DNA of 52,607 nucleotides from a virus, in the IMG/VR virus record IMGVR_UViG_3300020055_000026, positions 1-52,607 of that record; one strand, given 5' to 3'. Below, one piece after another: positions 36,595 through 52,607 of the stretch. How positions within the stretch are numbered: the stretch's first letter is position 1; every line of letters starts with the position of its first letter. Made by a program: the position numbers and the translations under genes. The notes beneath the pieces were generated by a model. The model was not told where the DNA came from and searched no databases. It saw nothing but the letters and a program-made list of their open reading frames with translations.

Positions 36595-36603
36595 GAGATT
36601 ATT

Positions 36604-37555: not shown

Positions 37556-37903
37556 ATGGACGAACGGCTAGAAAAAGCATTAGAGTTTTCCAATTTTATG
37601 GTTACTCTAAACAACCAAAAAAGAATTTTCCAAGAAACATACTATCAAGATATACTCCATTATCATAAAGGCGCTCAGTTTTCTGTAAATCAACAGTTAA
37701 TTTGTTTTGTCAAGATTATGCTAATGGAGGAGCAAGAGTCTGTAGTTTTAATTGACGATAATGATCGGCCCGTTGAGATTGAAGATTTGCAAGCGTTCTA
37801 TGATACAATTTTAAGTGTATATGTTGAAGCTAGTAATTCATATATGAGCAAATATAATCATCTAATCAAAAATAGATCAATAGAAAAAATGGTAGAACTA
37901 TGA
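37556..37903 (+). CDS. conserved small protein at the start of the modification operon (unknown function)
   Basis: Seen: 115 residues, largely helical and acidic, with an AAAAGGAG ribosome site. It has MDERLEKALEFSNFMVTLNNQ near the start, a central strand VVLIDDNDRPVEIEDL (about 65-80) and a C-terminal NRSIEKMVEL. No enzyme motif, signal peptide or membrane segment. Its stop overlaps the next start (ATGA), so it is translated with the glycosyltransferase genes. It may be a chaperone or adaptor for fibre proteins or for the enzymes downstream, but nothing in the sequence decides this. Confidence 0.6.
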   Translation: MDERLEKALEFSNFMVTLNNQKRIFQETYYQDILHYHKGAQFSVNQQLICFVKIMLMEEQESVVLIDDNDRPVEIEDLQAFYDTILSVYVEASNSYMSKYNHLIKNRSIEKMVEL

Positions 37904-38805
37904 AAAGTCGTGGGGCTCTTGTTGTAGCAAGAAATAACCCAAATATTGATTATTTAAAACAAGCAGCATTTCTAGCTCAAAGATTAGATCATTATTTAAA
38001 TATTCCTACATCAGTTATTACTGATAGCCCAGAATGGGTAGTGGTAAATGGTTATGCAGATATATTTGATAGAATTATACCAATCGTATGGGAAGATAAA
38101 GAATCATTACCAGGTAAAAATGTTATGGCTAGAACAAGCCCTCATTATACTTGGGAAAATGTTAGGCGATATTATGATGGTGTTTTGTCACATAAAGCAT
38201 TGCCATTTAAAAATGAAGCTAGAACTTCGGCATATGACGCTACACCATATGATGAAACAATTCTAATAGACAGTGATATGTTTATTATGAATGATGATTA
38301 TAAACATTGCTTTGAACAAGATCATAACTTTCTCATCTATGATAAAAGTTATGACTTAGCAGGGTTTAGAAACCCAATGGAATTTAAATATATTAGTCAG
38401 CCTAGTATTAAGTTTTATTGGGCAACAGTTGTGTTTTTTAGAAAGTCTAAAGAAAATGAGATCTTCTTTGAGTTGTTAAAGCACATACAAGATAACTGGT
38501 ATCATTATAGAGCTATTTTCCAAATACCAACAGCTTTATATCGTAATGATTTTGCATTTAGTATAGCAATTCATATTATGAACGGGTATGAAGAAGGAAC
38601 ATTTTCAATGCCAATGCCAGGCAAGTTATTTTTTACAGCAGATAAAGATATTCTATGGGATGCTGACAGGGATCGTATAAATTTTTTATTGGAAAAAGAA
38701 GATTATCCAGGAGAATATACAATATGCCAATGGCGTAATGAAAATATTCATGTTATGAATAAATTTAGTTTAGAACGATATATTGATAAGGTGTTGCATG
38801 TCTAA
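37900..38805 (+). CDS. glycosyltransferase-like protein A (GT-A fold)
   Basis: Seen: 301 residues. N-terminal Rossmann-like half (RGALVVARNN..., PTSVITDSPEW), then TPYDETILIDSDMF with the DxD-type motif D124-S-D126, which in GT-A enzymes binds metal and nucleotide sugar. The C-terminal half is aromatic-rich (IKFYWATVVFF, NWYHYRAIF). Its neighbour at 38798 has the same SPYDETIVLDAD pattern, so the two are paralogs. No membrane segment. It overlaps both neighbours (4 and 8 bases). Substrate and acceptor unknown; modifying fibres or host surface glycan is inference from position. A bacterial GT8-like assignment is possible. Confidence 0.65.
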   Translation: MKSRGALVVARNNPNIDYLKQAAFLAQRLDHYLNIPTSVITDSPEWVVVNGYADIFDRIIPIVWEDKESLPGKNVMARTSPHYTWENVRRYYDGVLSHKALPFKNEARTSAYDATPYDETILIDSDMFIMNDDYKHCFEQDHNFLIYDKSYDLAGFRNPMEFKYISQPSIKFYWATVVFFRKSKENEIFFELLKHIQDNWYHYRAIFQIPTALYRNDFAFSIAIHIMNGYEEGTFSMPMPGKLFFTADKDILWDADRDRINFLLEKEDYPGEYTICQWRNENIHVMNKFSLERYIDKVLHV

Positions 38806-39664
38806 AGGTTTTGTAATATATGCCAGTGGAAAAGAATATGTAAAGCAGGCTTATATTTGTGCTATTAGTATAAAAGAAAAAGGAAACTCATATCCAGTAA
38901 CAATTGTTACTTGTGATAAGATAGATGACGAGCAGAAAAAGGTATTTGATAGCGTAGTACCAATACCTTGGCACGAGCATGACAATACTCGATATCAAGT
39001 TTTGAATCGATGGAAGACTTACCACGCCTCACCTTATGATGAGACAATTGTATTAGATGCTGATACTGTAGTAACACAAAATATTGATGATTGGTGGAAG
39101 TTTTTTAGTAAGTATGAGTTATTTTTTCCATCTAGAGTTTATACATATCGAGGCGAGTTAGTTACAGGACATTATTATCGTAAAGCATTTGTAGAAAATA
39201 ATTTGCCAAGTATATATACAGGAATACATTATTTTAGAAAAGATGATTTGGCGCATGAATTTTTTAAATGGTTAGAACTTATATCTAATAACTGGGAATT
39301 GTTTTATGGGCAATACTGTAAAGATTATTATCCACCAGCACCAAGTATGGATGTATCTACAGCAATTGCAATTAAAATTTTAGAGTTAGATCAAACAGTA
39401 ACTAATAATAAAACTAATCTTATAAATTTTGTTCATATGAAAGAACGAATACAAGGTTGGGCAAATATTCGATCTACTTGGTTGAAGCACGTTGGGGTTT
39501 ATTTAACAGAAGATTTAGATTTAGTGATCGGTAATCATTTTCAAAGAGGTGTTTTTCATTATGTTGATTCTGATTTTTTATCTAAAGAAATAGTTGATAT
39601 ATATGAAAGGAAATATTTTCCTAACAAAGTTTATGAAGAAATAGTACAAGGTATTGTATCATGA
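38798..39664 (+). CDS. glycosyltransferase-like protein B (GT-A fold), paralog of A
   Basis: Start chosen at ATG 38798 (MSKGFVIYASG), 288 residues, because AAGGTG lies 7 bases upstream; the ATG at 38783 would lie inside the previous coding end. Seen: KGFVIYASGKEYVKQAYICA opening, VTIVTCDKI, then SPYDETIVLDADTV with D87-A-D89 as the metal/nucleotide-sugar motif. Near 144-150 comes YTGIHYFRKDD, where GT8-type enzymes place acceptor residues. The end overlaps the next gene by four bases. Same fold and probably the same pathway as protein A. Confidence 0.65.
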   Translation: MSKGFVIYASGKEYVKQAYICAISIKEKGNSYPVTIVTCDKIDDEQKKVFDSVVPIPWHEHDNTRYQVLNRWKTYHASPYDETIVLDADTVVTQNIDDWWKFFSKYELFFPSRVYTYRGELVTGHYYRKAFVENNLPSIYTGIHYFRKDDLAHEFFKWLELISNNWELFYGQYCKDYYPPAPSMDVSTAIAIKILELDQTVTNNKTNLINFVHMKERIQGWANIRSTWLKHVGVYLTEDLDLVIGNHFQRGVFHYVDSDFLSKEIVDIYERKYFPNKVYEEIVQGIVS

Positions 39665-40263
39665 GTTATGTTTGTTTTAATGTTCGAGAAGGAAATATAT
39701 TAGCAATAACAAATAATAAACCAGATGATTTAGATTTTGACTGTGAATGGAAATCTATAATAGTTGATGTTGCTGAGGTTGAAGATATTCTATTAGGAAA
39801 TGAAGACTACGCAAATTTTATAGTAATATATGATCGAACGTATCTTGGTTATAAATTAAAGCGTAAAGAAATTATACCAGTTGATGAATTAAATATACAA
39901 GAAATTGTTTATAAAATTCCACAAGTTCATAAGGACTTAGATGCTGATATTAAGATAATACAAGATATTGATACAACTTGTTGGAAAGTTTATGTTGGTA
40001 AAGATGCCGCTGGAAAACTTAGAGCAGAGTTTGCTAGTTTAAAGTTAGTTTTACATTTTTCAGTAACTCAATATAACAATCCTAATATATTATATCGTAT
40101 ATTAAAAGTAGATTTAGAGAAATTAGTAAATGAGCATCATTGTGTCCTTCATTTTGAAGAAGACTGGGAATATGATCCATATTTTCCAGTGAGTATTTTT
40201 ACAGTAAGACGATTTGACAATTACACATATCAAAGAGTAGTGGATTATGGAGAAAGTATTTAA
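39661..40263 (+). CDS. small protein sharing the N-terminal domain of a radical-SAM neighbour (unknown function)
   Basis: Seen: 200 residues. Residues 1-70 (MSYVCFNVREGNILAITNN, ..DILLGNEDYANFIVIYD, YKLKRKE) match in pattern the first 65 residues of the radical-SAM protein at 43942 (MSYVYYNNDGSIIAASND, ..KLLVGEHLPSEYNVYKN, LVYKKE). The rest is alternating strand-like sequence with VLHFEEDWEYDP near 165-176. No catalytic motif recognised. ATGA overlap upstream, 17-base overlap downstream. A partner or docking protein for the enzymes is plausible but unproven. Confidence 0.6.
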   Translation: MSYVCFNVREGNILAITNNKPDDLDFDCEWKSIIVDVAEVEDILLGNEDYANFIVIYDRTYLGYKLKRKEIIPVDELNIQEIVYKIPQVHKDLDADIKIIQDIDTTCWKVYVGKDAAGKLRAEFASLKLVLHFSVTQYNNPNILYRILKVDLEKLVNEHHCVLHFEEDWEYDPYFPVSIFTVRRFDNYTYQRVVDYGESI

Positions 40264-41176
40264 GGTATTGGATTACGATATAATTTATTTAAGTTATGAT
40301 GAACCAAATGCTGAACAGAATTATGCTGATTTATGTAAGAAAATACCATGGGCAAAAAGAGTTCATGGCGTAGAAGGCTCGGATGCGGCACACAAAGCCT
40401 GCGCAAATTTATCTGAGACTGATAGATTTGTTACTATAGACGGCGATAATAGAATTAGAGAAGATTTTCTTACGCAAGAGATTAATTTTGGCGATCATTA
40501 TGAGCTAGAAGATAAAGTTATTAGTTGGTGTGGGTATAATGTTATCAACGGACTTATGTATGGTAACGGCGGAGTAAAATGTTGGCCCAAAGATTTTGTG
40601 CTAAATATGCGAACACACGAAAACGCAGATCCAAATAATCCACACGCTCAAGTAGATTTTTGCTGGGATGTAGAATACATTCAAATGAATTCTTGTTTCT
40701 CTGATATTTACAATAACGCAACACCACAGCAAGCATGGCGAGCAGGATTTAGAGAAGGCGTAAAGATGGCACTAGATCAAGGAGTAAAGCCATCTTTGGA
40801 AGACTTCAAAAATAACCACTGGAAAAACCTCCACAGGCTGTTTATTTGGCTTATGGTGGGTAACGATGTTGAGAATGGAATGTGGGCGATCTTGGGCGCT
40901 AGACAGGGCCTATACAAGACGATGTGCACCGACTGGGATTATGTTCAAGTAAGAGACTTTACTTACCTAAATAAATTATGGAATGAAGAAGTTAGTAAGC
41001 TAACCGAAACAGATGCTGAAGGAGAGATTATTTGGTTTGGCAGATTATTAGAAGAAGAATTAGATTTACCAATTGATAGAAAACCTTTAACAGAAAAGCA
41101 AAGTATATTTTTCAAAACAGTATATCAAAACCCATCTAGGATTTCAAGAGCAGTAATTGATCCGGAGATAGGATGA
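40247..41176 (+). CDS. glycosyltransferase-like protein C (YDIIYLSYDEP family)
   Basis: Seen: 309 residues. Opens YDIIYLSYDEPNAEQNY, then KRVHGVEGSDAAHKAC and FVTIDGDNRI (D65-G-D67 as DxD-type motif), with VINGLMYGNGGVKCWPKDFVLNM at about 102-125. These elements recur in the same order in the C-terminal domain of the protein at 49302, so they form a distinct family. It is GT-A-like by the DxD region, but the donor and acceptor are unknown. GC is raised in its second half. It overlaps both neighbours. Confidence 0.6.
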   Translation: MEKVFKVLDYDIIYLSYDEPNAEQNYADLCKKIPWAKRVHGVEGSDAAHKACANLSETDRFVTIDGDNRIREDFLTQEINFGDHYELEDKVISWCGYNVINGLMYGNGGVKCWPKDFVLNMRTHENADPNNPHAQVDFCWDVEYIQMNSCFSDIYNNATPQQAWRAGFREGVKMALDQGVKPSLEDFKNNHWKNLHRLFIWLMVGNDVENGMWAILGARQGLYKTMCTDWDYVQVRDFTYLNKLWNEEVSKLTETDAEGEIIWFGRLLEEELDLPIDRKPLTEKQSIFFKTVYQNPSRISRAVIDPEIG

Positions 41177-42597
41177 GAGAAAATCAGCGAGGAGATCAAG
41201 TCTCGCTAGTTGAAGGACGATATGTTTCAAAATATTTTAAAGATAGTAAAGAGACACTAACGGATCTCAATGCCGTTAGTCCGTCATTCTGCCTAGCAAA
41301 ATGGTTCAATGTATCAATTCATATCCCAACAGGGCAGACTCACAGTTGTTATCATCCTCAGTCTCACGCTATACCATTAGACGAGTTAGCGGCTAATCCA
41401 GATGCTATACACAACACTAGCCATAAAATACAGCAGCGGCATAAGATGTTGGAAGGAGAGCGTCCAAAAGAGTGTAGTTACTGCTGGGATATTGAAGATC
41501 AAGGCAATATAAGTGACAGAGCTTACCGCAGCAATGATGTTCAAGAGGAAGGACTAATACAAAAAGCATTAGACAACATTCAGCACCCAACTCCACGCTA
41601 TATGGAGGTAAATTTTAATCAGGCTTGTAACTTTAAGTGTGCATATTGCTCACCGCATTTATCTACTGAATGGCTAAAGGAGGTACAAGAGTATGGCGGT
41701 TACAAATTATCATCAGGAACGCATAATGATAAAGGTTGGGTAGATAGATTAGGGATTGACAATAGCCCAGACAATCCATACGTTCAATCGTTTTGGGAAT
41801 GGTGGCCCACTGTATATAAGGATCTAAAAACATTTAGAATGACAGGCGGTGAGCCACTAATGGATAAGAATACTTTCAGAGTATTTGATTATGTAAAACA
41901 AAATCCAAATCCAGAACTTAATTTGTGTATTACAAGTAATTGTTGCCCACCAGGCAATCAATGGAATAAGTTTATGGTTGCTATAAAAGAGATAGCAAAT
42001 GAAGAAACGCTCAATCACTTTCAACTATATTGTAGCTTAGATACTTGGGGAGAGCAAGCAGAATATATCCGTAACGGTTTAGATTATGAGATATTAAGAA
42101 AAAATATTGTACAATTTTTAACAGAGTGCAAAAATCATAGCTTAGGATTTATAATTACATCAAATTTGCTCAGTCTTCCTAATTGGTGTAAGTTTATAGA
42201 GACTATTCATGAGCTACGATGTAAAGTAAATAAAGAGAGACAACTAATATGGTTTGATACTCCAATGCTACATCATCCTAATTGGCTAAGTATGAGATTA
42301 GCAACTCCAGAGATGTTGAATAATTTACAACTTAGTATAGATTTTATGGAAAATAATAAAGAGACTTCCAATAATAGATTTAAAGGTTTTAAGGATTTTG
42401 AGATTGATAGAGTAAGACGATTATATGATTGGGCTAAACATCCTTTTAGTGCTGAAGAAGATGAGAAACATAAGATAGACTTTTATTTATTTTTTACTGA
42501 ACATGATAAAAGGCGCAATACAAATTTTACAAAAACATTTCCAACTATGATAAAATTTATGAACCAGTGTAAGGAGTATTATGAGCAAAGGAGATGA
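41173..42597 (+). CDS. radical-SAM protein 1 with N-terminal twitch-like cluster domain
   Basis: Seen: 474 residues. Residues 30-110 hold four Cys (C40, C59, C101, C104, the last two in CSYCW), as in twitch-type domains that bind an auxiliary iron-sulfur cluster. Then comes the radical-SAM core with C152-x3-C156-x2-C159 and a GGEP motif (225-228), which bind the 4Fe-4S cluster and SAM. It is strongly similar to radical-SAM 2 (both have NPYV/IxxFWxWWP and FR/LRxTGGEPLM). Known: such twitch radical-SAM proteins occur in marine T4-like phages; substrate unknown. ATGA overlap upstream, 17-base overlap downstream. Confidence 0.85.
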   Translation: MRENQRGDQVSLVEGRYVSKYFKDSKETLTDLNAVSPSFCLAKWFNVSIHIPTGQTHSCYHPQSHAIPLDELAANPDAIHNTSHKIQQRHKMLEGERPKECSYCWDIEDQGNISDRAYRSNDVQEEGLIQKALDNIQHPTPRYMEVNFNQACNFKCAYCSPHLSTEWLKEVQEYGGYKLSSGTHNDKGWVDRLGIDNSPDNPYVQSFWEWWPTVYKDLKTFRMTGGEPLMDKNTFRVFDYVKQNPNPELNLCITSNCCPPGNQWNKFMVAIKEIANEETLNHFQLYCSLDTWGEQAEYIRNGLDYEILRKNIVQFLTECKNHSLGFIITSNLLSLPNWCKFIETIHELRCKVNKERQLIWFDTPMLHHPNWLSMRLATPEMLNNLQLSIDFMENNKETSNNRFKGFKDFEIDRVRRLYDWAKHPFSAEEDEKHKIDFYLFFTEHDKRRNTNFTKTFPTMIKFMNQCKEYYEQRR

Positions 42598-43945
42598 TCA
42601 CGTTCGAGAAGCAAGAGATGTTGCAAAGAGACTGAATGCAGTAGGTCCAGGGTTTTGTGCTATGAAGTGGCTACATCAAACTTTATATTTACATACAGGT
42701 GATAATCATAGTTGTTATCATCCACGTCCCCATCATATTCCTTTACATACTCTAAAAGATAACCCGTCTGCTTTGCATAATACTAACTGGAAAAAAGAAC
42801 AACGAAAAACAATGTTAGAGGGTGGACGCCCTGCTGAGTGTTATTATTGTTGGAATATTGAAGATTTAGAAGGAGATCATTTATCAGATAGAATGTTCCA
42901 TAGCTCTAGCTCGTTTGCTGAGCCAATGATTGAAAAATTAGCAGAGCTTCCTTGGGATGCTAATATAAATCCAAGATATTTAGAAGTATCGTTTGGCAAT
43001 GGTTGTAATTATAGATGTGGTTACTGCTGTCCACAAGCAAGCACAATGTGGATGGAAGAAATTGAGACATACGGCAATTATGATTTGACATATAATCAAT
43101 ATGGAACAGAGTTTTTGCGAAGCGGAAACTACTATGGACCAAATGAAGATAATCCATATATTGAGGCGTTTTGGAAATGGTGGCCCAGTTTGAAAAATGA
43201 TTTATGGACACTTCGTATTACTGGCGGGGAGCCACTAATGAATCCTGGAGCTATGAAGTTTTTTGATTTATTAGAAAATGAACCATCGCCTAACTTAGAG
43301 ATTAGCTTAAATAGTAATTTAGGTGTTACTACAAAAAAGATTGATAGGTTGTTTGATCGGATACGAAGTTTATTAGATCAAAATAAAATTAAGAAATTTA
43401 GACTCTTTACAAGTATTGATACATGGGGACCACAAGCTGAGTATATGCGTACTGGAATGAAGTTAGATCATTGGGAGCGCAATCTTAGAAAAGCAATGGA
43501 GATGGAATTTGAAGTAAGTCTTATGTGTACATTTAATGTTTTATGTGTTACAAACTATAAATCGTTTTTATATAAAATGAAAGAATGGAGAGCTGATTAT
43601 GGCAAAGAGGCTATTTCATTTGATGTTCCATATCTTAAAGAACCACCTCATTGGATGATTAATATTTTGCCCGAAAGTTTTATGGAATATATGCATGATA
43701 CTTTAGAGTTTATTAATAGTGACTCTGATTTTTTACCAGCAGAGTATGAGAGATTTAAACGAGTCACAAATTATATGAAAACTAATCCAGTTGAGCATAG
43801 TAAAATTTTACAAGGACAAAGAGATTTTTATTCATTTTTTACAGAAAATGATAAACGATTAGGAACTGATTTGTTAGCTACATTTCCTGAGTATAAAGAT
43901 TTTTATTATCATTGTAAAGATGTTTATGAGAACTACGAAAAATGA
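42581..43945 (+). CDS. radical-SAM protein 2, paralog of protein 1
   Basis: Seen: 454 residues; AAGGAG 5 bases before the ATG. N-terminal cluster ligands C26, C45, C87, C90 (CYYCW), radical-SAM C142-x3-C146-x2-C149, and GGEP at 215-218. The same long spacer as in protein 1 lies between the Cys motif and GGEP. The high likeness over the core indicates a tandem duplication. One enzyme may act on the product of the other, or on a second site. No RiPP-type precursor peptide fits between the genes because they overlap. Confidence 0.85.
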   Translation: MSKGDDHVREARDVAKRLNAVGPGFCAMKWLHQTLYLHTGDNHSCYHPRPHHIPLHTLKDNPSALHNTNWKKEQRKTMLEGGRPAECYYCWNIEDLEGDHLSDRMFHSSSSFAEPMIEKLAELPWDANINPRYLEVSFGNGCNYRCGYCCPQASTMWMEEIETYGNYDLTYNQYGTEFLRSGNYYGPNEDNPYIEAFWKWWPSLKNDLWTLRITGGEPLMNPGAMKFFDLLENEPSPNLEISLNSNLGVTTKKIDRLFDRIRSLLDQNKIKKFRLFTSIDTWGPQAEYMRTGMKLDHWERNLRKAMEMEFEVSLMCTFNVLCVTNYKSFLYKMKEWRADYGKEAISFDVPYLKEPPHWMINILPESFMEYMHDTLEFINSDSDFLPAEYERFKRVTNYMKTNPVEHSKILQGQRDFYSFFTENDKRLGTDLLATFPEYKDFYYHCKDVYENYEK

Positions 43946-45504
43946 GTTATGTATATTATAATAATGACGGCTCAATAATAGCAGCATCAAATGATTTGTT
44001 AACAGATTTTGCAAATGCCAACATTTTAGAAATTGAGTTTGAAAAAATAGAAAAATTGTTAGTTGGAGAGCATTTACCATCAGAGTATAATGTTTATAAA
44101 AATAAACTAGTCTATAAAAAAGAGAAAGTAGAATCAACATGGAAGTTAAAGGCTATTACATTTTTTTATAAATATTTGAGAAGAGTTGAATCATATTATA
44201 ATACCTATCATGACATACTTAAATATAAAGTAGCATTAATGACAACGACACCATATAGTCCCCCATCTAAATCTCTTTATCATCGTCCCCCATCTAAACC
44301 TATTCATCCAACAAGATGTGTTAATCCATATCTAAATTTAACAATACATCCAAGTGGTAAAGTTAAAGTATGTTGTATGAGTCATAAGTGGCTCACTACT
44401 GATTCTGGAGAGACTACTTTAAATAATGCTAGTTTGTTAGATTTTTGGAATTCAAAAGACAGAAAACGATTTATAAAACAATTAGAGAGTAAAATACAAG
44501 TTCCTGAATGTAAGGCTTGTTGGACTGAAGAAGCAGCAGGAAAAGATAGTAAAAGATTGCGAGATAATGCAGCATACAAACACATACCACACGATGAACA
44601 GTCTTTTCCAATAGTATTAGATTTAGGTATGGGAAACTTATGTAATTTAAAATGTCGTATTTGTTCAGCAGTTCATAGTACACCTATGTTAGCTGAAGAA
44701 GCTGAAATGTTGCAGCCAAACGATGTTGTTGGTTATATGAATCAAGATAAGTTCCGTATTACTCGTGAAAGTTTTGATCCTAATAATTCGTATGTTTGGG
44801 AAGATATAAAACCATTTCTAAAAAATGCTATGAGGTTTGATTTCTCAGGCGGAGAGCCTTTTTATATTGATTCGCATTGGCGTATAATAGATCATTGTGT
44901 AGAGAATGATTATGCGAAAGAACAAATAGTTCATTACAATACAAATGGATCAATATTTCCACAAAAGCATATTCACAAGTTAGATAAATTCAAATTAGTT
45001 GATATACAAATAAGTTCAGATGGTATAGGTAAACAATTTGAATATTTGAGAAGTGGTGTATCATTTGAATTGTCAGAACAAAATATAGATAAGTTTTTAG
45101 AAAGAAAAAAAGAAAGTAAAACTAATTGGTTATTAGGTGCTTGTCTAAGTGTAAGTGCTTTCAATGTTTTTGATTTTTTTGAAACTTATGAGCATTATAC
45201 AGCAAAAGGTTTAGGGGTATATGTTAATTTTGTTCATGATAATGGTGGAATACGAGTGCTACCAACAGAAGTTAAAAATCATTTGATAGATAAACTTCAA
45301 AGGACTGAAAGTAAGTATAACAAAGCAGATTGGCGTAAAGTAAAAAACTCAATATCAAGTATATTGAATAATACTGAGTTCGTAGAAGAAGATTGGCTTT
45401 GGTTTTGTAATAGATTTCAAAGTTTAGATAAAGTGAGAGAGGAAAGTTTTGAACAAACTTTTCCAGAATACTATAAGTTATTAAAGGAATATATAAATGT
45501 TTAA
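43942..45504 (+). CDS. radical-SAM protein 3 with extra N-terminal domain
   Basis: Seen: 520 residues in three parts. Residues 1-65 are the small domain also found as the N-terminal part of the 200-residue protein at 39661. Residues 65-120 are a linker with a repeated PPSK motif. Residues 126-205 are a twitch-like domain (C126, C144, C145, C190, C193; HPSGKVKVCC and CKACW). The radical-SAM core follows with C234-x3-C238-x2-C241 and SGGEP (302-306). It shares the NPSG/HPSG...VCC element with radical-SAM 5. The fused first domain may recruit a partner or substrate. Confidence 0.85.
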   Translation: MSYVYYNNDGSIIAASNDLLTDFANANILEIEFEKIEKLLVGEHLPSEYNVYKNKLVYKKEKVESTWKLKAITFFYKYLRRVESYYNTYHDILKYKVALMTTTPYSPPSKSLYHRPPSKPIHPTRCVNPYLNLTIHPSGKVKVCCMSHKWLTTDSGETTLNNASLLDFWNSKDRKRFIKQLESKIQVPECKACWTEEAAGKDSKRLRDNAAYKHIPHDEQSFPIVLDLGMGNLCNLKCRICSAVHSTPMLAEEAEMLQPNDVVGYMNQDKFRITRESFDPNNSYVWEDIKPFLKNAMRFDFSGGEPFYIDSHWRIIDHCVENDYAKEQIVHYNTNGSIFPQKHIHKLDKFKLVDIQISSDGIGKQFEYLRSGVSFELSEQNIDKFLERKKESKTNWLLGACLSVSAFNVFDFFETYEHYTAKGLGVYVNFVHDNGGIRVLPTEVKNHLIDKLQRTESKYNKADWRKVKNSISSILNNTEFVEEDWLWFCNRFQSLDKVREESFEQTFPEYYKLLKEYINV

Positions 45505-46750
45505 TGGTAGCAAATATCAAGTCCATTGGGAACCATCAGATAGATGTAATAGTCGGTGTCCAATGTGCCCAAGGTATGATGACAGAGGTTATGAGACAAA
45601 GCATTTAGCAAATACTGAATGGACCTTAGCTCAGTTTAAGAAAGCATGGCCCTTAGATTTTTTATCTGTGAATCTTAAGAAAATATTATCGTGTGGTAAT
45701 TTTGGAGATCCTTGTGCCTGTCGAGAGTTTGTGGATATTTATGAGTATGTTAGGGAAATAAATCCAACAGTTGGTTTAGCTTGTAACACAAATGCTAGTC
45801 TTAGGCAAACAGATTGGTGGGCTAGGTTAGGTGCTGTTATGACAAAAGAGCAAAATGCAGGAAACTACTGTACGTTTAGTATAGATGGTTTGAAGGATAC
45901 TAATCATATATATAGGCGTAATACAGATTTTGATAGGATTATAGAAAATGCTAAAGCATTTATTGATGCAGGCGGAGTAGCTCATTGGGATTTTATAGTA
46001 TTTAGGCATAATGAGCATCAAGTAGAAGAAGCTAGAGATTTAGCTCGATCAATGGGATTTGAAAACTTCAATGTAAAGAAAACAACCCGTTGGCAACGAT
46101 ATGATGATGGTATTGGCAGTTATAAAGTATATCACAATGGCGAATACAAATATGATTTGCAACAACCATCTGATAAAGCATTTAGACATCACTTTGAAGA
46201 TGCTACTATGTTCCAAGGGGAAGAGAGACAATCTTTTAGACCCAGTGATTTTCAAAATATGGTTGGGAGACATAATTCTGAAAGAAGATGGGTAGGTGAT
46301 AGTTGGCAAGACATTGATTTACATAAGTTAAATATTGCGTGTCGTAGCTCAGCTGGGGCTCGTATAAATTATTATAATGAGATTTATATTTCAGCAGATG
46401 GAACTGTTCATCCTTGCTGTTATTTAGGAAGTGAGATAGTAAAAAGTCATAATGAAGTAGCAGATCAAAATTATTTAGATATGTTACAACTTGATGGCGG
46501 TTATGAGATGTTTAATATGCATAAGTATAACTTATGGGATATCTTAGATAGAAAAACATTTAGGGAATATTTACCTAGCTCGTGGGATTTAGAAAAAGGA
46601 AATGTTTCAATGCGTCCTCAAAAATGTGGAGCGTGTTGTGGTGTTGAATGGAATTGTTTAGATTACGGTGAGCTTGGCGATAAAAATGAAGGTTACTTTG
46701 TAAAAGAAGATACAAAAATTGAAGCACAGGAATCAGAAAATGAAATCTAG
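45497..46750 (+). CDS. radical-SAM protein 4 with C-terminal SPASM/twitch-like cluster region
   Basis: Seen: 417 residues; AAAGGA before the ATG, 8-base overlap with radical-SAM 3. The core motif C17-x3-C21-x2-C24 is right at the N-terminus, followed by SCGNFGDPC (65-73) in place of GGEP, and SIDGLKDTNH (128-137). The C-terminal third has C282, C307-C308 (DGTVHPCC) and C377-x2-C380-C381 (KCGACC), as expected for auxiliary-cluster ligands of SPASM or twitch proteins. It is a different subfamily from 1, 2, 3 and 5, but matches the partial gene at the right edge. Substrate unknown. Confidence 0.85.
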   Translation: MFNGSKYQVHWEPSDRCNSRCPMCPRYDDRGYETKHLANTEWTLAQFKKAWPLDFLSVNLKKILSCGNFGDPCACREFVDIYEYVREINPTVGLACNTNASLRQTDWWARLGAVMTKEQNAGNYCTFSIDGLKDTNHIYRRNTDFDRIIENAKAFIDAGGVAHWDFIVFRHNEHQVEEARDLARSMGFENFNVKKTTRWQRYDDGIGSYKVYHNGEYKYDLQQPSDKAFRHHFEDATMFQGEERQSFRPSDFQNMVGRHNSERRWVGDSWQDIDLHKLNIACRSSAGARINYYNEIYISADGTVHPCCYLGSEIVKSHNEVADQNYLDMLQLDGGYEMFNMHKYNLWDILDRKTFREYLPSSWDLEKGNVSMRPQKCGACCGVEWNCLDYGELGDKNEGYFVKEDTKIEAQESENEI

Positions 46751-47948
46751 CAATTATTGCGTACTGCCATTTAAAAGTTTTAGCACAAATCCATCAGGTG
46801 AGATCAGAGTATGTTGTAATAATGGACACATGCCAGCCCCGTATCAAAAAATATCTGAAACTGAAGATGTATTGAATAGTAGGTTTATCCAAGATATTAG
46901 GCAACAGTTTATTAATAATGAAAAACCAAGCATATGTGATAGATGCTGGAAACAAGAAGAAGCACAAGTTCGTAGTTTTCGTCATTATGCAAATAATGAT
47001 TTACTTTTTGGTATAAAAGATGATGACGAGTCATCTAAGGCTAACGTTAAAGTTTCTTTTGAAGATATAGAGTATTGCGATATTAGCATAGGAAATCATT
47101 GTAACCTTGCTTGTAGAATGTGCAACCCTTTTAGTAGTAGTCTAGTTGGTAAAGAATTTGCTTCTATGGAAGGACTTCCAGAACCAAATTTAATAGGCCC
47201 AACACCAGATGAGAAGAAAAAAATATATGAGATTTTAGAAAAAGCAGTAAATTTAAATACTGTTTATTTGTTAGGCGGTGAGCCGTTGATTACAGATTTA
47301 CATGAAGAAATATTAGATTTATTAATTGATTCAGGTAAAGCTCAGAATGTTGTTCTTAGGCTTAGCACTAATTTGCAAACAAATAAACTAGATAAGTTTA
47401 TTGAGAAATGGGTTAAGTTTAGGCAATTAGCGATTCAAGTTAGTATAGATGGTTATGACAATATGTATGAGTATATTAGATGGCCCGGCAAATGGAGTAA
47501 AATAGATGAGAATTTTAGACATTTGATAGATGCTACAAAATTATCAAAAAGAAAATTGCTCCCAAGTATCGCAACTACTATTCAAAATATAAACTGCCAT
47601 AGTATTTTAGATTTGGTAGAAAATTATTGTATGACAAATAGATATCCAGTATCGTTTTATTTTATACCAGTAACTTCAGGCGAGGATTTATATATGACTC
47701 CAAAGAAGACTTTGATGGAGGTTTTTAAGAGACAAGAAAGGTTACAGCACAAACTGGGAGGATATATACCTTTAAGTGATTTAGAAAAATATTTAACAAG
47801 TGCTATGAGTCGAAAACCTACTAAAGATGAAGTAACGAAATTTTTTGACAAGTATAAAAAGTTTGATATTAGACGAAAACAAAATTTATTTGAGGCTGCT
47901 CCTTTTATGGAAAATTTAGCTAAGGAGTTTAAGATTAAGACATGGTGA
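46740..47948 (+). CDS. radical-SAM protein 5 with N-terminal twitch-like domain
   Basis: Start at ATG 46740 (MKSSNYCVLP), 402 residues; AGGAA upstream, and the ATG at 46719 lies deep in the previous gene. Seen: C7, C25, C26 (NPSGEIRVCC) and C66, C69 (CDRCW) in the N-terminal domain, then C121-x3-C125-x2-C128 and GGEP (179-182). The order and spacing match protein 3 without its extra first domain. It overlaps the previous gene by 11 and the next by 7 bases. Same class, substrate unknown. Confidence 0.85.
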   Translation: MKSSNYCVLPFKSFSTNPSGEIRVCCNNGHMPAPYQKISETEDVLNSRFIQDIRQQFINNEKPSICDRCWKQEEAQVRSFRHYANNDLLFGIKDDDESSKANVKVSFEDIEYCDISIGNHCNLACRMCNPFSSSLVGKEFASMEGLPEPNLIGPTPDEKKKIYEILEKAVNLNTVYLLGGEPLITDLHEEILDLLIDSGKAQNVVLRLSTNLQTNKLDKFIEKWVKFRQLAIQVSIDGYDNMYEYIRWPGKWSKIDENFRHLIDATKLSKRKLLPSIATTIQNINCHSILDLVENYCMTNRYPVSFYFIPVTSGEDLYMTPKKTLMEVFKRQERLQHKLGGYIPLSDLEKYLTSAMSRKPTKDEVTKFFDKYKKFDIRRKQNLFEAAPFMENLAKEFKIKTW

Positions 47949-48601
47949 TAAAATCATTAGAAGTTGTAAATAAGAATCCTGCAATATTGCATGTAGAAAT
48001 TTATCCATTTACTAGTAAAGAGATTTTAGGTAGGTTGATGAATAGAAACAATTATGAAACTCAAACCCAAAGGGGTGGATATGGAGAGTTGTCTATATCT
48101 TCTTCTAGAATGCCTATGAAGCAAGATTCTGAGTTACACAAAAAAATTAATAAACCAGAGTTTAAAAAAGAGTTTGGTTTTGAGGTATCGTGGCAATTCT
48201 TACAATTAGAAACTATCCGATACCCAATGACAACGCCTTATAAAAATCGTTATAAACGATATTATGAGCAATTGTTGGAACATGAGTTTAGAGTAGAACC
48301 TACAATAGATTTGTCAGGTTACTATTTAGATTCTCATATAGATAATAGATATATAATGTGGTCTGGTAGTATAAATTTAATAGAAAATCAAAACTCAACA
48401 GTTCTTTTTGATAAGGATCAACAACTTGGTAATGGACATCTTAACTCAACACCAATATATGAAGGAAGTAGAAAACGTTGGGAAGGAACTTGTTGGTTAA
48501 ACACCGAAATTACTTGGCATGGTGTTACGCCAGTCCCAGAGGGCGCTGATAGACATACACTACTTCTTAATCAGTTTTTAATATCACCGCCCGTCTGTTA
48601 A
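47942..48601 (+). CDS. 2-oxoglutarate/Fe(II) oxygenase-like protein
   Basis: Seen: 219 residues. The C-terminal half shows the double-stranded beta-helix signature: iron ligands H132-I-D134 (LDSHIDN) and H193 (TWHGV), and R204 (ADRHTLLLN) positioned to bind 2-oxoglutarate. Known: enzymes with HxD...H...R hydroxylate or otherwise oxidise C-H bonds; T4-like marine phages often carry them. Context: it is translated with the radical-SAM genes (7-base overlap) and ends 5 bases from the oppositely directed dehydrogenase gene, so it probably works in the same pathway. The AAGGAG upstream is 20 bases away, so initiation may depend on coupling. Confidence 0.75.
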   Translation: MVIKSLEVVNKNPAILHVEIYPFTSKEILGRLMNRNNYETQTQRGGYGELSISSSRMPMKQDSELHKKINKPEFKKEFGFEVSWQFLQLETIRYPMTTPYKNRYKRYYEQLLEHEFRVEPTIDLSGYYLDSHIDNRYIMWSGSINLIENQNSTVLFDKDQQLGNGHLNSTPIYEGSRKRWEGTCWLNTEITWHGVTPVPEGADRHTLLLNQFLISPPVC

Positions 48602-48606
48602 AATGG

Positions 48607-49251
48607 CTAAATCCAGGTACTTCCGTCTTTATTAAATGTTTTGCCATTATCTTTAGGTTCTATTTTTTCTATAACATTGAGTATTGCTTCAGCATCTTTA
48701 ACCTCATCACCTTTTGGAAACCAAATAGGATTGATAGCAAAAAATATTCCAGGATGTGCAGAGGCAAACCCTCTCATAATAAACAAATGCATAGATTTCA
48801 TAGATCCGTACCCGGCATAACCCCAATGATTTGGATCCTTCCCGTCAATCAAACCTGTTAGCATCCAACCAACTTTTGTTGATTTATTTATAGAGTTTGT
48901 TAGCTTGTGAACTAACCGATATGACATCATACTATCTCTTTTCAATATATCTGCCCAGCTATCTTCTGAAAACATACAGTTAGGCCTAAACCATTCATTG
49001 TTAGGACCGCCTCCTCCATTTTGATTAAAGAAAATTAGATCATAAGTTTTCTGTGATAAGTTTTCAGATATTGTATCAACTACTGGTCCAGTATATTGCT
49101 GCCAATCTACTTTGTGAGGATTGACATTTGGAGTGCCTGAGAAATTGTCAGAGCTTGTAATCAAATCAATGTGATAATTTTTTGTTAGTAAGTAACGGGT
49201 AAAGTCTGCTCCCCATTTACTACCACAACCAATTAATAGAGCATTTTTCAT
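48607..49251 (-). CDS. short-chain dehydrogenase/reductase-like protein, antisense in the operon
   Basis: Seen: 214 residues with a Rossmann start GCGSKWG (G8, G10, G14), a Gly-rich NQNGGGG (about 76-82) and the SDR catalytic pattern Y148-GSM-K152. Shorter than typical SDRs (about 250), so part of the substrate loop may be missing. Ribosome site AAAGG 6 bases before ATG 49251. It is the only minus-strand gene right of 3100 and faces the 2OG oxygenase with a 5-base gap, leaving no room for a terminator between them. A late-promoter match lies upstream at 49291-49284. It may oxidise or reduce a sugar intermediate; that is inference. Confidence 0.65.
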   Translation of the reverse strand: MKNALLIGCGSKWGADFTRYLLTKNYHIDLITSSDNFSGTPNVNPHKVDWQQYTGPVVDTISENLSQKTYDLIFFNQNGGGGPNNEWFRPNCMFSEDSWADILKRDSMMSYRLVHKLTNSINKSTKVGWMLTGLIDGKDPNHWGYAGYGSMKSMHLFIMRGFASAHPGIFFAINPIWFPKGDEVKDAEAILNVIEKIEPKDNGKTFNKDGSTWI

Positions 49252-49268
49252 TAGGTGCCTTTCTTCTA

Positions 49269-49276
49269 AATAAATA
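49269..49276 (+). promoter_or_regulatory. candidate late promoter, rightward half of a divergent pair
   Basis: AATAAATA on the plus strand, 26 bases before the repeat-glycosyltransferase ATG. It shares the 50-base gap with the opposite-strand match at 49284. Confidence 0.4.
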
Positions 49277-49283
49277 CTACTAT

Positions 49284-49291
49284 TATTTATT
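49284..49291 (-). promoter_or_regulatory. candidate late promoter, leftward half of a divergent pair
   Basis: The plus strand reads TATTTATT, so the minus strand carries AATAAATA, 33 bases before the dehydrogenase ATG. Two opposed late cores within 23 bases suggest a bidirectional late promoter, though the gap is AT-rich. Confidence 0.4.
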
Positions 49292-49301
49292 AAACCTTTT
49301 T

Positions 49302-50951
49302 ATGTATGATATATTTTATATAGGCCCAAAGAACGATTCTTACCAAAAGCTAAAAAATAAAATTCTAACATTACGACAAGCTGATACTTTTGAGAGTGCT
49401 AATAAAAAATGCATTACTAAATTCTTTTGGTGTGTTTGGGATGATATTATAATAGAGGATGATTTTACATTTGATTATGCACCAGATGAGTGGAGTCAAG
49501 ATGTACCTCATGTTTTTAAGAATGGTGCGTTATATGATGGTGTATGGTTAGTTCCAAAGAAAAATACTATAAGAACTAAAGAGATTGAGTATAGATTTTT
49601 AGTAAGTAAAAAAGAAATCCCAATTGTTGCAAGCACTCCTCGACCTTATGAGATTTTTATTATCGATACTATGGAGCAGTATGAGCAAGCATTGGCAAGC
49701 TCTAAGACAGAAATGTTTTTTGGTGTTTCATCTATGGTTGATATAATTGATATGCCTGACGTTTATTTTAGAGTAAGCAAAGCTGAAGAATATAATAGGA
49801 AAGAAAATCATGCTTGGTTAAACGATGTATGTGGTGAACTAAAATATGATGGATTATACTTATTTTCCAAACATAAACCTGTATCAAAAAAAGAGATAGA
49901 ATATAGACATCTTGTTTATAAAAAAGAATACGAAACTATAGCAACAAGAGCAAGTAAATATCCAATATATACAATTGATACATATGATGACTATGAACAT
50001 GCTCTAAATACTTGTAAAACTGAAATGTTTTTTGGAACAAGTAAGGGCATTGATATATTAGATTTTGATTTTGATATTTTTTATACATATAGGGGCAATG
50101 AGTTTGAATATGAAAGAAAAGAAAATCACGCCTTCAAAAATATATGTAACGGGGAAGAAAAATATAATGGTATATTCTTGTTATCAAAACATAAACAGTT
50201 GTCAAAAAGAGAGCTACAATTTAGACATATTGTATATAAAAAGGAATGGAACATTGTAGCTAGTAAGCATAAGCCATATGATGTAGTGTTTATGAGTTAT
50301 GATGAAGAATATGCTGATGAGAATTATGAGAATTTATTAAAGAAAGCACCTCACGCTACCCGTGTTCATGGAGTAAAAGGAATTCACCAAGCTCATATAG
50401 CAGCAGCAAAACAGTGTTCATCAGAAATGATTTGGATTGTAGATGCTGATGCTATAATAATGGATGATTTTAATTTTGAGTTGTTTGTAGAAAAATGGGA
50501 TAGAGAAACTGTTCATGTTTGGCGCTCTAAAAATCCTATAAATGATTTAGTGTATGGTTATGGCGGGGTAAAACTTTTTCCAAGAGAGCTTACAATCAAT
50601 ATGGACACTAGTAAGCCAGATATGACAACTAGCATTACACACAAGTTTAAGGCAATGCCAGCAATATCAAATATTACAGCATTCAATACAGATCCGTTCA
50701 ATACTTGGAAGTCTGCGTTTAGAGAATGTTGCAAGCTAAGTTCAAAAATTATTGATAGGCAAAGGGCTAAGGAAACAGAAGAAAGATTACATATATGGTG
50801 TACTGTAGGGGATGATAAAGAGTTTGGAGAATATGCTATATCTGGAGCTAAAGCAGGAGCAGCATATGGCTCTAGAAATAAAGAAAATTTAGAAGCACTA
50901 AAGAAAATAAACGATTTTGATTGGTTAAAGAATTATTATAATGAAATCTAA
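49302..50951 (+). CDS. glycosyltransferase-like protein D with three degenerate N-terminal copies of its domain
   Basis: Seen: 549 residues; no clear ribosome site before ATG 49302. Residues 326-549 (YDVVFMSYDEEYADENY, TRVHGVKGIHQAH, IWIVDADAIIMDDFNF with D381-A-D383, YGYGGVKLFPRELTINM) match the glycosyltransferase-like protein C. Residues 1-321 are three units of about 100 residues that start YDIFYIG, YEIFIID, YPIYTID and end YRFLVSKKE, YRHLVYKKE, FRHIVYKKE. Unit 1 still shows FFWCVWDDIIIEDDF at the place of the DAD motif. So the protein is one apparently intact domain plus three decayed copies lacking the metal motif, perhaps for substrate or partner binding. Confidence 0.65.
   Translation: MYDIFYIGPKNDSYQKLKNKILTLRQADTFESANKKCITKFFWCVWDDIIIEDDFTFDYAPDEWSQDVPHVFKNGALYDGVWLVPKKNTIRTKEIEYRFLVSKKEIPIVASTPRPYEIFIIDTMEQYEQALASSKTEMFFGVSSMVDIIDMPDVYFRVSKAEEYNRKENHAWLNDVCGELKYDGLYLFSKHKPVSKKEIEYRHLVYKKEYETIATRASKYPIYTIDTYDDYEHALNTCKTEMFFGTSKGIDILDFDFDIFYTYRGNEFEYERKENHAFKNICNGEEKYNGIFLLSKHKQLSKRELQFRHIVYKKEWNIVASKHKPYDVVFMSYDEEYADENYENLLKKAPHATRVHGVKGIHQAHIAAAKQCSSEMIWIVDADAIIMDDFNFELFVEKWDRETVHVWRSKNPINDLVYGYGGVKLFPRELTINMDTSKPDMTTSITHKFKAMPAISNITAFNTDPFNTWKSAFRECCKLSSKIIDRQRAKETEERLHIWCTVGDDKEFGEYAISGAKAGAAYGSRNKENLEALKKINDFDWLKNYYNEI
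49305..50264 (+). repeat. three tandem protein-level repeats (about 100 residues each)
   Basis: Units cover residues 2-112, 116-216 and 220-321 of the glycosyltransferase-like protein D. Shared landmarks in order: Y.I(F/Y).I start, TEMFFG or FFW at mid-unit, KENHA(W/F)(L/K)N in units 2 and 3, Y(D/N)G(L/I/V).L..KK/SKHK, and the (Y/F)R(F/H)(L/I)V.KKE end. Confidence 0.8.
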
Positions 50952-51483
50952 ATATATTTTTATAACAGGCGCTCCAGGAAGCAAGTGGAGTAGCTACAGC
51001 CAAAAAATAAGGCAATGGGATACAATAGATAACTCAGATTGTAATCAGCTTCGATCTTATACCCACAATCAATTCTCAGGACATAAAGGGGTGTACTTTG
51101 GCCCTGAGATGGAATACGGCGATTGGCTCAAAGATGGGTTTTATCCTAACAAACTAGAAGAAGATGTAAAGTCAATATGGACAGGAGATGGGCAAAAAAT
51201 ATTGATGAGCCATAATTGGTGTTATTACTTTGATGAAATTTTATATGCTTATCCCACAGCAACAATCATAACAGTGCAGAGAAAAAATGATAAGTGTTTT
51301 GAATGGTGGAAACAGGCAGGTGGTTGGGGAATTACATACCCTAGCTATAGTTGGTATAAAAATGATGATAGGATGAAAGAAGAAATTAGTAAGCAAAATA
51401 AATGTATTGAAGATTATATTGAGAAACATAAATTAGAGAGAACATATTTTGAAGATATAACATCAACTATAAATATAAAATGA
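50941..51483 (+). CDS. P-loop protein, sulfotransferase-like
   Basis: Seen: 180 residues. It opens KYIFITGAPGSKWSS, a strand followed by a phosphate-binding loop (residues 10-18) whose Ser-Ser end resembles the PAPS-binding loop of sulfotransferases more than a kinase GKS/T. A later strand ATIITVQRKNDKCFEWW could be the second PAPS-contacting segment. Short for a sulfotransferase, so the assignment is tentative; a nucleotide kinase is the alternative. It overlaps both neighbours (11 and 4 bases). Sulfation of a glycan or peptide would fit the operon, but that is inference. Confidence 0.45.
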   Translation: MKSKYIFITGAPGSKWSSYSQKIRQWDTIDNSDCNQLRSYTHNQFSGHKGVYFGPEMEYGDWLKDGFYPNKLEEDVKSIWTGDGQKILMSHNWCYYFDEILYAYPTATIITVQRKNDKCFEWWKQAGGWGITYPSYSWYKNDDRMKEEISKQNKCIEDYIEKHKLERTYFEDITSTINIK

Positions 51484-52184
51484 AAAATATTGAATGGCAA
51501 GACGATAGAGATATATATGGAAGAATGTTGTTACTTACAGATTCTTTTTTGTTTAATGGGTTGCGTAATGCTGTAGATCATTATGATGCAGATTTTACAG
51601 ATGCATTAACCTGGGGGCAGCTAAAAAGTAAAAGATGGTTATTACAAGAATTGCACAAATGCAATAAAGAAGATTTAGGAACTGTCTTTTTATGTGCTGG
51701 TTGGTATGCTATTTTAGCTGGTATGCTATTTGAAGATAGTTTTAATATAGATAGAATATTATCATTTGACATTGATGTAGATTGCGTTCCTATTGCTGAA
51801 ACAATCAATAAAAAATATGTATCAAAAGATTGGCAATTTAAAGCACTCCAATACGATATACATGATATAACATATAAAGATTTTTCTTGGACATTTTGGA
51901 GTAATAAAAATAATAGGATGAGCTATCCTATAACTGAATCTGCTGATACTGTTATCAATACAAGTTGTGAGCATATTGATAACTTTAAATTGTGGTATGA
52001 TTCTTTACCTTTTGGCATATTACTAATACTACAAACAAATAATTATTTTGAAATAGAAGATCATATTAACTGCTCAGAGTCATTAGAGAATTTTGCAGCC
52101 AGTACACCAATGGATAAAGTGTTATATGAAGGTGAGTTAGATTGTAACAAATATACAAGGTTTATGAGGATAGGAATAAAGTAA
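51480..52184 (+). CDS. class I SAM-dependent methyltransferase-like protein
   Basis: Seen: 234 residues. Motif I-like strand and loop VFLCAGWYAILAG (69-81; the Gly-rich loop is changed to CAGWYA), then ILSFDIDVDCVPIAE (93-107), where the acidic D97/D99 at the end of strand 2 would hold the SAM ribose. A DTVINTSCEHID segment (156-167) fits motif IV. The order is that of Rossmann methyltransferases. The first 45 residues are extra. ATGA overlap with the preceding gene; the next ATG follows the stop directly. Substrate unknown. Confidence 0.6.
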   Translation: MKNIEWQDDRDIYGRMLLLTDSFLFNGLRNAVDHYDADFTDALTWGQLKSKRWLLQELHKCNKEDLGTVFLCAGWYAILAGMLFEDSFNIDRILSFDIDVDCVPIAETINKKYVSKDWQFKALQYDIHDITYKDFSWTFWSNKNNRMSYPITESADTVINTSCEHIDNFKLWYDSLPFGILLILQTNNYFEIEDHINCSESLENFAASTPMDKVLYEGELDCNKYTRFMRIGIK

Positions 52185-52607
52185 ATGTACAAGTATTCAG
52201 ACATCCGCCAAATCCACTTAGAGGTTACCCAAAAATGCAATGCCTCCTGTCCAATGTGCGATAGGAACCAAAATGGGGGTGATATTAATCCACATATAAA
52301 TCTAGATGAACTAACATTACAAGACTGCCAAAAAATATTTGAGCCAGAGTTTATACAACAATTAGACGCTATGTATATGTGCGGTAATCTTGGAGATCCA
52401 ATAATTGCTAAAGATACAATAAAAATATTTGAATATTTTAGGGATCACAACGAAAAAATGTGGCTGTCTATGAACACAAATGGCGGCGCACGGGACAGAG
52501 AGTGGTGGCAAATGCTCGCTAGGATACTTAGAAAGCCCGCTGTTGTGATTTTTTCAGTAGATGGGTTAGCTGATACTAATCATTTATATCGTCAAGGTGT
52601 GATATGG
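52185..52607 (+). CDS. radical-SAM protein 6, partial (cut by the window edge)
   Basis: Seen: 141 residues before the sequence ends; ATG lies immediately after the previous stop, with AGGAATA upstream. Core motif C18-x3-C22-x2-C25 (KCNASCPMCDR), then MCGNLGDPI, MNTNGGARD and SVDGLADTNHLYR. These match radical-SAM 4 in order and spacing, so a C-terminal SPASM-like part probably follows outside the window. The gene shows that the modification operon continues rightward. Confidence 0.85.
   Translation, partial: MYKYSDIRQIHLEVTQKCNASCPMCDRNQNGGDINPHINLDELTLQDCQKIFEPEFIQQLDAMYMCGNLGDPIIAKDTIKIFEYFRDHNEKMWLSMNTNGGARDREWWQMLARILRKPAVVIFSVDGLADTNHLYRQGVIW

Follow-up and report, generated by a model that had tools for sequence, protein, structure and literature searches.

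The stretch of DNA analysed here, which we call the window, is the virus record IMGVR_UViG_3300020055_000026 of IMG/VR over its full length of 52,607 nucleotides (52.6 kb), and its right-hand end carries an array of genes for radical S-adenosylmethionine (radical-SAM) enzymes, r1 to r6, behind a set of tail-fibre genes (handles and coordinates are collected in Table 1). The left and middle parts of the window are T4-like, and upstream of the array a PHROG scan gave matches to a T4-type late sigma factor, to baseplate wedge and hub proteins and to tail fibres. From h0 (37556) to ox (48601), ten consecutive plus-strand gene junctions all overlap, a count that takes the ATG starts of gt2 (38798) and r5 (46740), both read from the sequence. 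These upstream matches and overlaps agree with the late operon proposed in an earlier sequence-only reading of the window, made without database searches. A search for the late-promoter motif CTATAAATA with at most one mismatch found 51 sites against 49.7 expected, which is no enrichment, and a search for tRNA genes found none.

The same reading had called six radical-SAM open reading frames (ORFs), each with an intact CxxxCxxC motif, and we found all six at the positions claimed, r6 being open at the window end. The motif is present in 6 of 6 window proteins and in 12 of 12 proteins of a longer record described below, which by sequence places them all in the radical-SAM superfamily. PF04055 matched r1 to r6, with r2, r4 and r5 above the gathering score and r1 the weakest (19.7 bits, E 0.0011) and absent from a separate five-match scan. 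The claim that four of the proteins carry N-terminal auxiliary-cluster cysteines was also sustained, as r1, r2, r3 and r5 all exceed the 170-bit cut-off of NF033640 (N_Twi_rSAM) and belong to this N-twitch family, while r4 (35 bits) and r6 (44 bits truncated, 64 bits at full length) fall below it and do not; further downstream, r7, r9 and r10 lie above the cut-off and r8 narrowly below (166 versus 170 bits). The iron-sulphur (Fe-S) ligands are conserved: r1 has the SAM cysteines C152-C156-C159 and the N-terminal cysteines C40, C59, C101 and C104, and in a 68-row N-twitch alignment C26, C87 and C90 are invariant together with the SAM cysteines C142, C146 and C149, with C45 nearly so. At least one C-terminal auxiliary set, likewise claimed, is found in r4, whose SPASM domain (PF13186) scores 25.2 bits against a cut-off of 21.5. 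Full-length r6 has C255, C274, C275, C338 and C342 behind the core and gave no PF13186 match at E 0.01. In r3, a SPASM-type match (31.5 bits) covers residues 126-194, ahead of the core. The N-terminal extension of r3 occurs only in near-identical relatives among 79 loci, and we dropped the idea that it is a domain shared with h3 because of this confinement and a BLASTP E of 0.54. Ratios of nonsynonymous to synonymous substitution rates (dN/dS) of 0.045-0.317 for r1 to r5, taken against four relatives of which not each had every gene available, indicate purifying selection, and the values are rough in two of the four because dS exceeds 1. Searches by sequence for solved relatives returned none for r4 and only a viperin at E 0.54 for r2.

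The arrangement of the six proteins in three paralogous pairs stood for two of them. The proteins r1 and r2 (34% identity, E 1.7e-100) and r4 and r6 (36% identity for the truncated r6; 29.6% and 177 bits when a relative's complete r6 is used) are paralogues that form separate clades across phages. In a comparison of 12 proteins with a tree, the supposed r3-r5 pair scored 91 bits, against 107 bits for r3 with its best partner r9 and 140 bits for r5 with its best partner r10. The motif taken to mark this pair (N/HPSG..VCC plus C..CW) is not specific to it, the elements ‘..G...CC plus C..C’ being common to N-twitch proteins, and the pairing fails because the shared motif belongs to the whole family NF033640. 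Further best-match pairs are r9-r10 and r11-r12. The tree was a quick one from 17 of the 79 loci of the r4 scan, with 32 of 106 inner branches left open. The count of six itself is due to the contig ending there. A longer, near-identical record (that of L010), whose r4 is 100% identical to that of the window, extends 25 kb beyond the window end and adds a complete r6 (354 aa, with a copy at L085:2132-3196) and r7 to r12, giving 12 radical-SAM genes in total. Between and behind the radical-SAM genes of this continuation there are very weak matches (E ~0.01, below the Pfam cut-offs) to the families nitroreductase (two genes), APH, pyridoxal phosphate (PLP)-dependent decarboxylase/aminotransferase and PP-loop. 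Across 21 related virus records PF04055 gave 1-19 matches each, for example 19 in one of 281 kb and 17 in one of 235 kb.

Scans of a viral collection yielded 79 loci for r4, 17 for r9 and 80 for r2, those of r4 and r2 coming from the best 80 of 524 and 151 stretches, respectively. For the neighbourhood counts, proteins were made non-redundant at 90%, several loci share one contig (e.g. L008, L089, L107), and the ‘next upstream’ gene is the nearest labelled ORF within 300 bp, with unlabelled ORFs ignored; the counts are lower bounds because many loci end inside the island. Of 43 r2 genes, 37 have r1 as the next gene upstream, and h4 or rep stands next upstream of 37 of 46 r1 genes, with six of the other nine having no labelled upstream gene. 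Similarly, mt is next upstream of r6 in 25 of 36 cases and farther upstream in six more. The 41 non-redundant r2 loci contain r4-labelled genes (30), gt1 (29), gt2 (29), h0 (27) and a type-A fibre (21), and in many contigs the recurrent order is fibre, t1/t2, h0, gt1, gt2, h4 or rep, r1, r2, with gene content downstream of r2 differing between phages. Two modules emerge, one of h4, r1 and r2, often followed by r3, r4 and r5, and a second (module B) of the GT-A-type gene rep with mt and r6, with r9, r10 and r12 further on. The gene-neighbourhood search that had been suggested as a check returns recurring units across viral contigs (h4/rep-r1-r2 and mt-r6). This type of island is nearly absent from a collection of 50,697 phage records, in which tblastn gave matches in two records for r2, in four for r4, in three for r9 and in none for h4, mt, t2 or gt1.

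The gene at the head of the first module, h4, encodes a protein without a Pfam match. Its AlphaFold2 model (predicted local distance difference test, pLDDT, 91.9) suggests a GT-A-type protein whose predicted fold fits glycosyltransferases (GTs) best, and its residues D65 and D67, invariant in a 58-row alignment, form a DxD motif. Foldseek rows 1-26 are SunS/ThuS, WrtF, RmlT and a ppGalNAc-transferase. In VIA-align, where the best Z is 10.1 over 138 residues, glycosyltransferases as well as nucleotidyltransferases score Z 8-10, mostly over ~140 residues. The product of rep scores 21.3 bits with PF00535, just below the cut-off of 23.3, and clusters with h4 in a set of 20 loci plus the window. 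By eye, rep (49302-50951) also shows several degenerate copies of a GT-A-like segment ahead of one complete copy. For gt1 the best Pfam match has an E of 0.27. The paired proteins t1 and t2 are 37% identical, t1 gave no PHROG match, and G40, Y41, H75, N170 and W194 are invariant in an alignment of their family.

The array has a counterpart in bacteria. The N-twitch alignment, used to scan genomes of bacteria and archaea, gave at least 12 strong loci, and among those listed nine are from Bdellovibrionota (a phylum name that we assume for part of the surveyed genomes) and one each from Deltaproteobacteria, Beijerinckia and Neomarinimicrobiota; 68 further loci were weak, and the weak partial matches L195-L262 were not used. 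The Neomarinimicrobiota contig holds phage-type fibres, gt1, gt2 and h4, and we read this locus as phage because T4 capsid genes sit on two contigs of that genome, both with N-twitch matches. In 240 Bdellovibrionota genomes (the phylum of G030) searched at E 1e-40, r2-type genes were found in 59 and r9-type genes in 30; the same search for r9 in 398 Pseudomonadota genomes (the phylum of Beijerinckia) gave 0, an empty answer that by itself shows nothing. The fourteen best r9 loci have 52-59% identity, one of them, L278, being the contig of L308, a locus to which we return below. Near r9 these loci contain r6 (10), r12 (10), a GT-A-type gene (h4/rep; five, including the L308 contig) and mt (three). 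At E 1e-20, r6 is present in 13 of the 14 r9-bearing genomes, with best matches at 41-46% identity and not always adjoining r9, and several Bdellovibrionota loci hold homologues of r6, r9, r10, r12, the GT-A-type gene, mt and plp together. The island of G030 lies within a 936-kb contig near serS (neighbours named by eye). Unlike the phage island, the Bdellovibrionota clusters come without a T4 capsid match (0 of 16 genomes tested) and, in 239 of 240 genomes, without t1, the single exception being L308. Given the lack of a capsid in the 16 genomes, module B either works or is at any rate retained outside T4-like phages, which argues that this module, at least, needs no virion target. In the r9 tree most phage copies are nested among bacterial ones, with a very long outgroup branch, and in the r6 tree bacteria (with one phage) and phages fall on two sides; because of that long branch and the different split, we make no firm claim on the direction of transfer.

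Phages with large sets of radical-SAM genes have been on record since 2010, so that the size of the set is not in itself new. The sequence-only reading had set single twitch radical-SAM genes of marine phages against a set of this size, for which it knew of no described function, a contrast overtaken by published sets of 11-12 genes. PMC2853527 reports 11 and 12 radical-SAM proteins in the Campylobacter phages CP220 and CPt10, including a five-gene module termed interchangeable, and PMC5332604 describes TARA_ERS488813_N000010, a T4-like marine genome of 183 kb that has 12 radical-SAM genes as well as a gene for an A-type Fe-S carrier. For pelagimyophages, PMC7029224 describes a hypervariable host recognition cluster in which tail fibres occur together with glycosyltransferases and radical-SAM cassettes. 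Beyond a general metabolic benefit, the text consulted in PMC2853527, PMC5332604 and PMC7029224 gives no function for a whole radical-SAM set. Our array resembles each of these systems in part. In CP220, the module includes annotated sugar-nucleotide transferase domains and lies ~11 kb from an annotated tail fibre gene, a sixth radical-SAM gene lies ~4 kb from that fibre gene, and one gene is 28% identical to r4; in contrast to the window, tblastn of CP220 gave no r2-, h4- or mt-type match, and its module contains an amidinotransferase. The Pelagibacter phage Mosig EXVC030M also has MoaA-like genes near annotated tail fibres, but its r4 match is only 26% over half the length, r2, h4 and mt have no match there, and the annotated gene order differs. 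The pelagimyophage host recognition cluster is defined as an island between vrlC and gp14; the array here follows a 5444-aa ORF and tail fibres. TARA_ERS488813_N000010, likened by its published description rather than by gene identity, shares gene number and T4-like background, and its A-type Fe-S carrier is of a kind found in 5 of 17 records related to the window. NF033640 covers r1, r2, r3, r5, r7, r9 and r10 and not r4, r6 or, narrowly, r8, and its family name gives no function. What our analysis adds are the recurring units and the bacterial homologues, which turn a gene list into a few testable enzyme teams.

The reading that we favour, with about an even chance of being right, is that the phage encodes the assembly and radical editing of a surface glycan, borne by the fibres or by the host surface, with a substrate and chemistry that we infer. 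A multi-step pathway acting on a virion or host surface molecule had already been proposed. We prefer it as well, since genes resembling glycosyltransferases constantly accompany the array in the phages and are met again next to some of the bacterial homologues; either the virion or the host surface may be the target. Also in its favour are the position of h4 or rep next to r1, the invariant DxD and predicted fold of h4, gt1 and gt2 in 29 of 41 r2 loci each, the r6, r12 and GT-A-type neighbours of r9, the sugar-acting enzymes among the r2 fold matches, and purifying selection. Within ~1.5 kb of r2, GT2- or GT4-type genes were matched at 7 of 30 loci, compared to 0 of 30 serS loci (Fisher p 0.011), using six queries, five taken from r2 and one from r9 neighbourhoods, four of the six being labelled by eye. 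When ten neighbours chosen by eye were scanned with Pfam, GT2, GT4 or DegT domains were confirmed beside four r2 homologues, and the bacterial locus L189 has a Pfam-confirmed GT4, carbamoyltransferase and ABC-2 transporter. Several observations weigh against a glycan pathway. The GT queries were mostly named by eye and serS, with its conserved context, is a weak control, for which reasons we treat the enrichment as supporting only; the same queries matched beside r9 in 1 of 14 loci only, and among the ten scanned neighbours five had no match and one was a flavoprotein. Neither gt1, mt, sdr nor ox has Pfam support. The Foldseek TM-scores of h4 are only ~0.3, its matches include the peptide-glycosylating SunS/ThuS and ppGalNAcT, and nucleotidyltransferases (IspD, MobA; up to Z 8.9) trail its top match by less than 2 Z. 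Pfam confirmed PqqD and YcaO genes, which are hallmarks of peptide pathways, at a single bacterial locus, L194; the array proteins that were scanned gave no PqqD match. Comparison of the r2 model (AlphaFold2, mean pLDDT 94.5) was tried as a guide to chemistry and rejected. Its best radical-SAM fold matches among those listed are BlsE (Z 13.0), SkfB (13.0), anSME (12.3), DesII (12.2), MoaA (12.2) and a viperin-like protein (11.7). Of these, BlsE and DesII act on sugars, and SkfB and anSME, like SuiB, on peptides. The matches span the core only (about residues 85-407), over which many radical-SAM enzymes tie, so that the fold does not choose a chemistry, with SkfB, anSME, SuiB, MoaA and viperin all within ~1.5 Z of the sugar enzymes.

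These peptide-type signals would suit a different explanation, which we consider rather unlikely, in which the radical-SAM enzymes and glycosyltransferases directly modify a protein of the virion, either t1/t2 or a fibre, in the manner of maturases of ribosomally synthesised and post-translationally modified peptides (RiPPs), leaving crosslinks, epimers or glycosylated side chains. Besides the r2 and h4 fold matches and locus L194, it draws on the close run of fibres and t1/t2 into the array. However, t1 occurs in 1 of 240 Bdellovibrionota genomes against 59 for r2 and 30 for r9, and a conserved precursor is not apparent: 100 intergenic small ORFs at 16 bacterial loci formed no family in three or more loci, and of 210 small ORFs at 49 phage loci none among the twelve most widespread families has the spread of the enzymes. 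Most of these twelve lie on the opposite strand behind the array, and inside it are only a 74-aa (10 loci) and a ~110-aa family (three loci). The small-ORF result makes an ordinary RiPP system less likely but does not bear on the modification of a large protein or on a distant substrate. A diffusible small molecule acting in or around the infected cell, antibiotic-like or a viperin-style modified nucleotide, seems less probable still. The weak matches to nitroreductase, PLP-enzyme, PP-loop and APH families in the continuation would fit it, as would the nitroreductases, aminotransferases and carbamoyltransferase annotated around the MoaA-like genes of Mosig, but the proteins scanned with the prokaryotic viperin model NF038283 (r7, r9 and r10 left out) score at most 40 bits against a cut-off of 180, and the genes that stay beside the array are of glycosyltransferase type and follow tail fibres. 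Least probable, and very doubtful in our view, is a set of interchangeable auxiliary genes that aid host metabolism and give infected cells fitness, e.g. at low oxygen, as PMC2853527 proposes for CP220 and CPt10. The variable gene content downstream of r2 is consistent with this idea, whereas the order and partners conserved over diverse viral contigs, and the position behind the tail fibres, argue against it.

Under the favoured glycan pathway, the region would be the first part of a long late operon for glycan building and editing. The GT-A-type proteins may load a carrier with a sugar. The radical-SAM enzymes would act in fixed pairs, with electrons relayed through their auxiliary clusters, and could by hydrogen abstraction epimerise, deoxygenate or otherwise rebuild sugar residues, with methyl-, sulpho- and amino-transfer as putative finishing steps. 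The product might decorate the fibres, or might take the place of the host surface glycan or cap it, and so would change adsorption, superinfection or recognition. Somewhat more tentatively, and with the balance of probability against it, the phage and bacterial loci may represent an undescribed class of glycan assembly line common to phages and Bdellovibrionota, in which teams of N-twitch and SPASM enzymes, each under its own GT-A-type glycosyltransferase, remodel sugars. As such an assembly line, the phage would have two parallel teams, h4 with r1, r2 and r4, and rep with mt, r6, r9 and r10. If the product is a glycan, the array would represent a chemically new route to an altered phage or host surface and could be drawn on for radical-SAM sugar chemistry.

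Table 1. Genes of the tail-fibre region and radical-SAM array in the window
Feature	Position	Strand	Description	Basis or remark
fibC	29827-31959	+	Tail-fibre/collar-type, upstream of array	PHROG tail, tail collar, tail fibre matches (fibC, fibA)
fibB	31964-34012	+	Tail-fibre/collar-type, upstream of array	Named from position only
fibA	34053-35597	+	Tail-fibre/collar-type, upstream of array	PHROG matches as for fibC
t1 + t2	35617-37500	+	Paralogous ~300-aa proteins	Between fibres and array
h0	37556-37903	+	Small conserved protein	ORF; first in overlapping chain
gt1	37900-38805	+	Glycosyltransferase-like	DSD motif; label from sequence only
gt2	38798-39664	+	Putative mannosyltransferase-like	PF11051 26.5 bits, cut-off 22
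h3	39661-40263	+	Conserved in part of loci	15/41 r2 loci
h4	40247-41176	+	GT-A-type protein (nucleotide-sugar transferase fold, predicted)	Invariant DxD, predicted fold
r1	41173-42597	+	N-twitch radical-SAM enzyme	NF033640 309 bits
r2	42581-43945	+	N-twitch radical-SAM enzyme, r1 paralogue	NF033640 310 bits
r3	43942-45504	+	N-twitch radical-SAM enzyme with ~120-aa N-terminal extension	NF033640 265 bits
r4	45497-46750	+	Radical-SAM enzyme with C-terminal SPASM	PF04055 32.4 bits, SPASM 25.2 bits
r5	46740-47948	+	N-twitch radical-SAM enzyme	NF033640 269 bits; PF04055 45.5 bits
ox	47942-48601	+	Conserved protein; oxygenase is a guess only	No Pfam match; 10/41 r2 loci
sdr	48607-49251	-	Rossmann-like dehydrogenase by eye	No Pfam match
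rep	49302-50951	+	GT-A-like, h4 paralogue with degenerate repeats in front	Opens second module
sulf	50941-51483	+	Sulfotransferase-like	PF17784 21.7 bits, below cut-off 22.8; between rep and mt here
mt	51480-52184	+	Methyltransferase-like	Label from sequence; no Pfam match
r6	52185-52607	+	SPASM-type radical-SAM enzyme, r4 paralogue	Open at window end; PF04055 33.6 bits

Some further features of the window and its relatives deserve mention. The 5444-aa ORF, at window positions 12868-29202 between the baseplate and fibre genes, may encode the VrlC-like protein of related phages. The gene sdr is the single minus-strand gene inside the plus-strand operon, and its orientation is kept in other phages. 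In 10 of 49 phage loci (L047:9750-9971, L094:7952-8176 and eight others) the gene of the conserved ~74-aa protein lies immediately upstream of r6; in the window, where mt and r6 abut, no such gene was seen between them. The ~110-aa ORF (L014:18139-18468, L016:17472-17807, L030:17789-18118) has the N-twitch cysteine pattern alone and is perhaps a split-off auxiliary-cluster domain. Genes for A-type Fe-S carriers (PF01521) are present in 5 of 17 related virus records (G005, G012, G016, G666, G667); these are five of the six longest records, and the two fragments nearest the window have none. Among the bacteria, matches to the N-twitch family, weak ones included, number 31 in G023 and 32 in G028, and one contig of G023 (L266, L267) has ~16, of which 14 are above the cut-off. 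At L308 (6573-19998), housekeeping genes that we take by eye to be rsmI, trmD, pheS and pheT run into r9, rep, r12, t1, h0, gt1, gt2, h4 and radical-SAM genes. The junction may reflect inserted phage DNA or a chimeric assembly, and the contig gives a hint that bacteria of this kind serve as hosts or donors.

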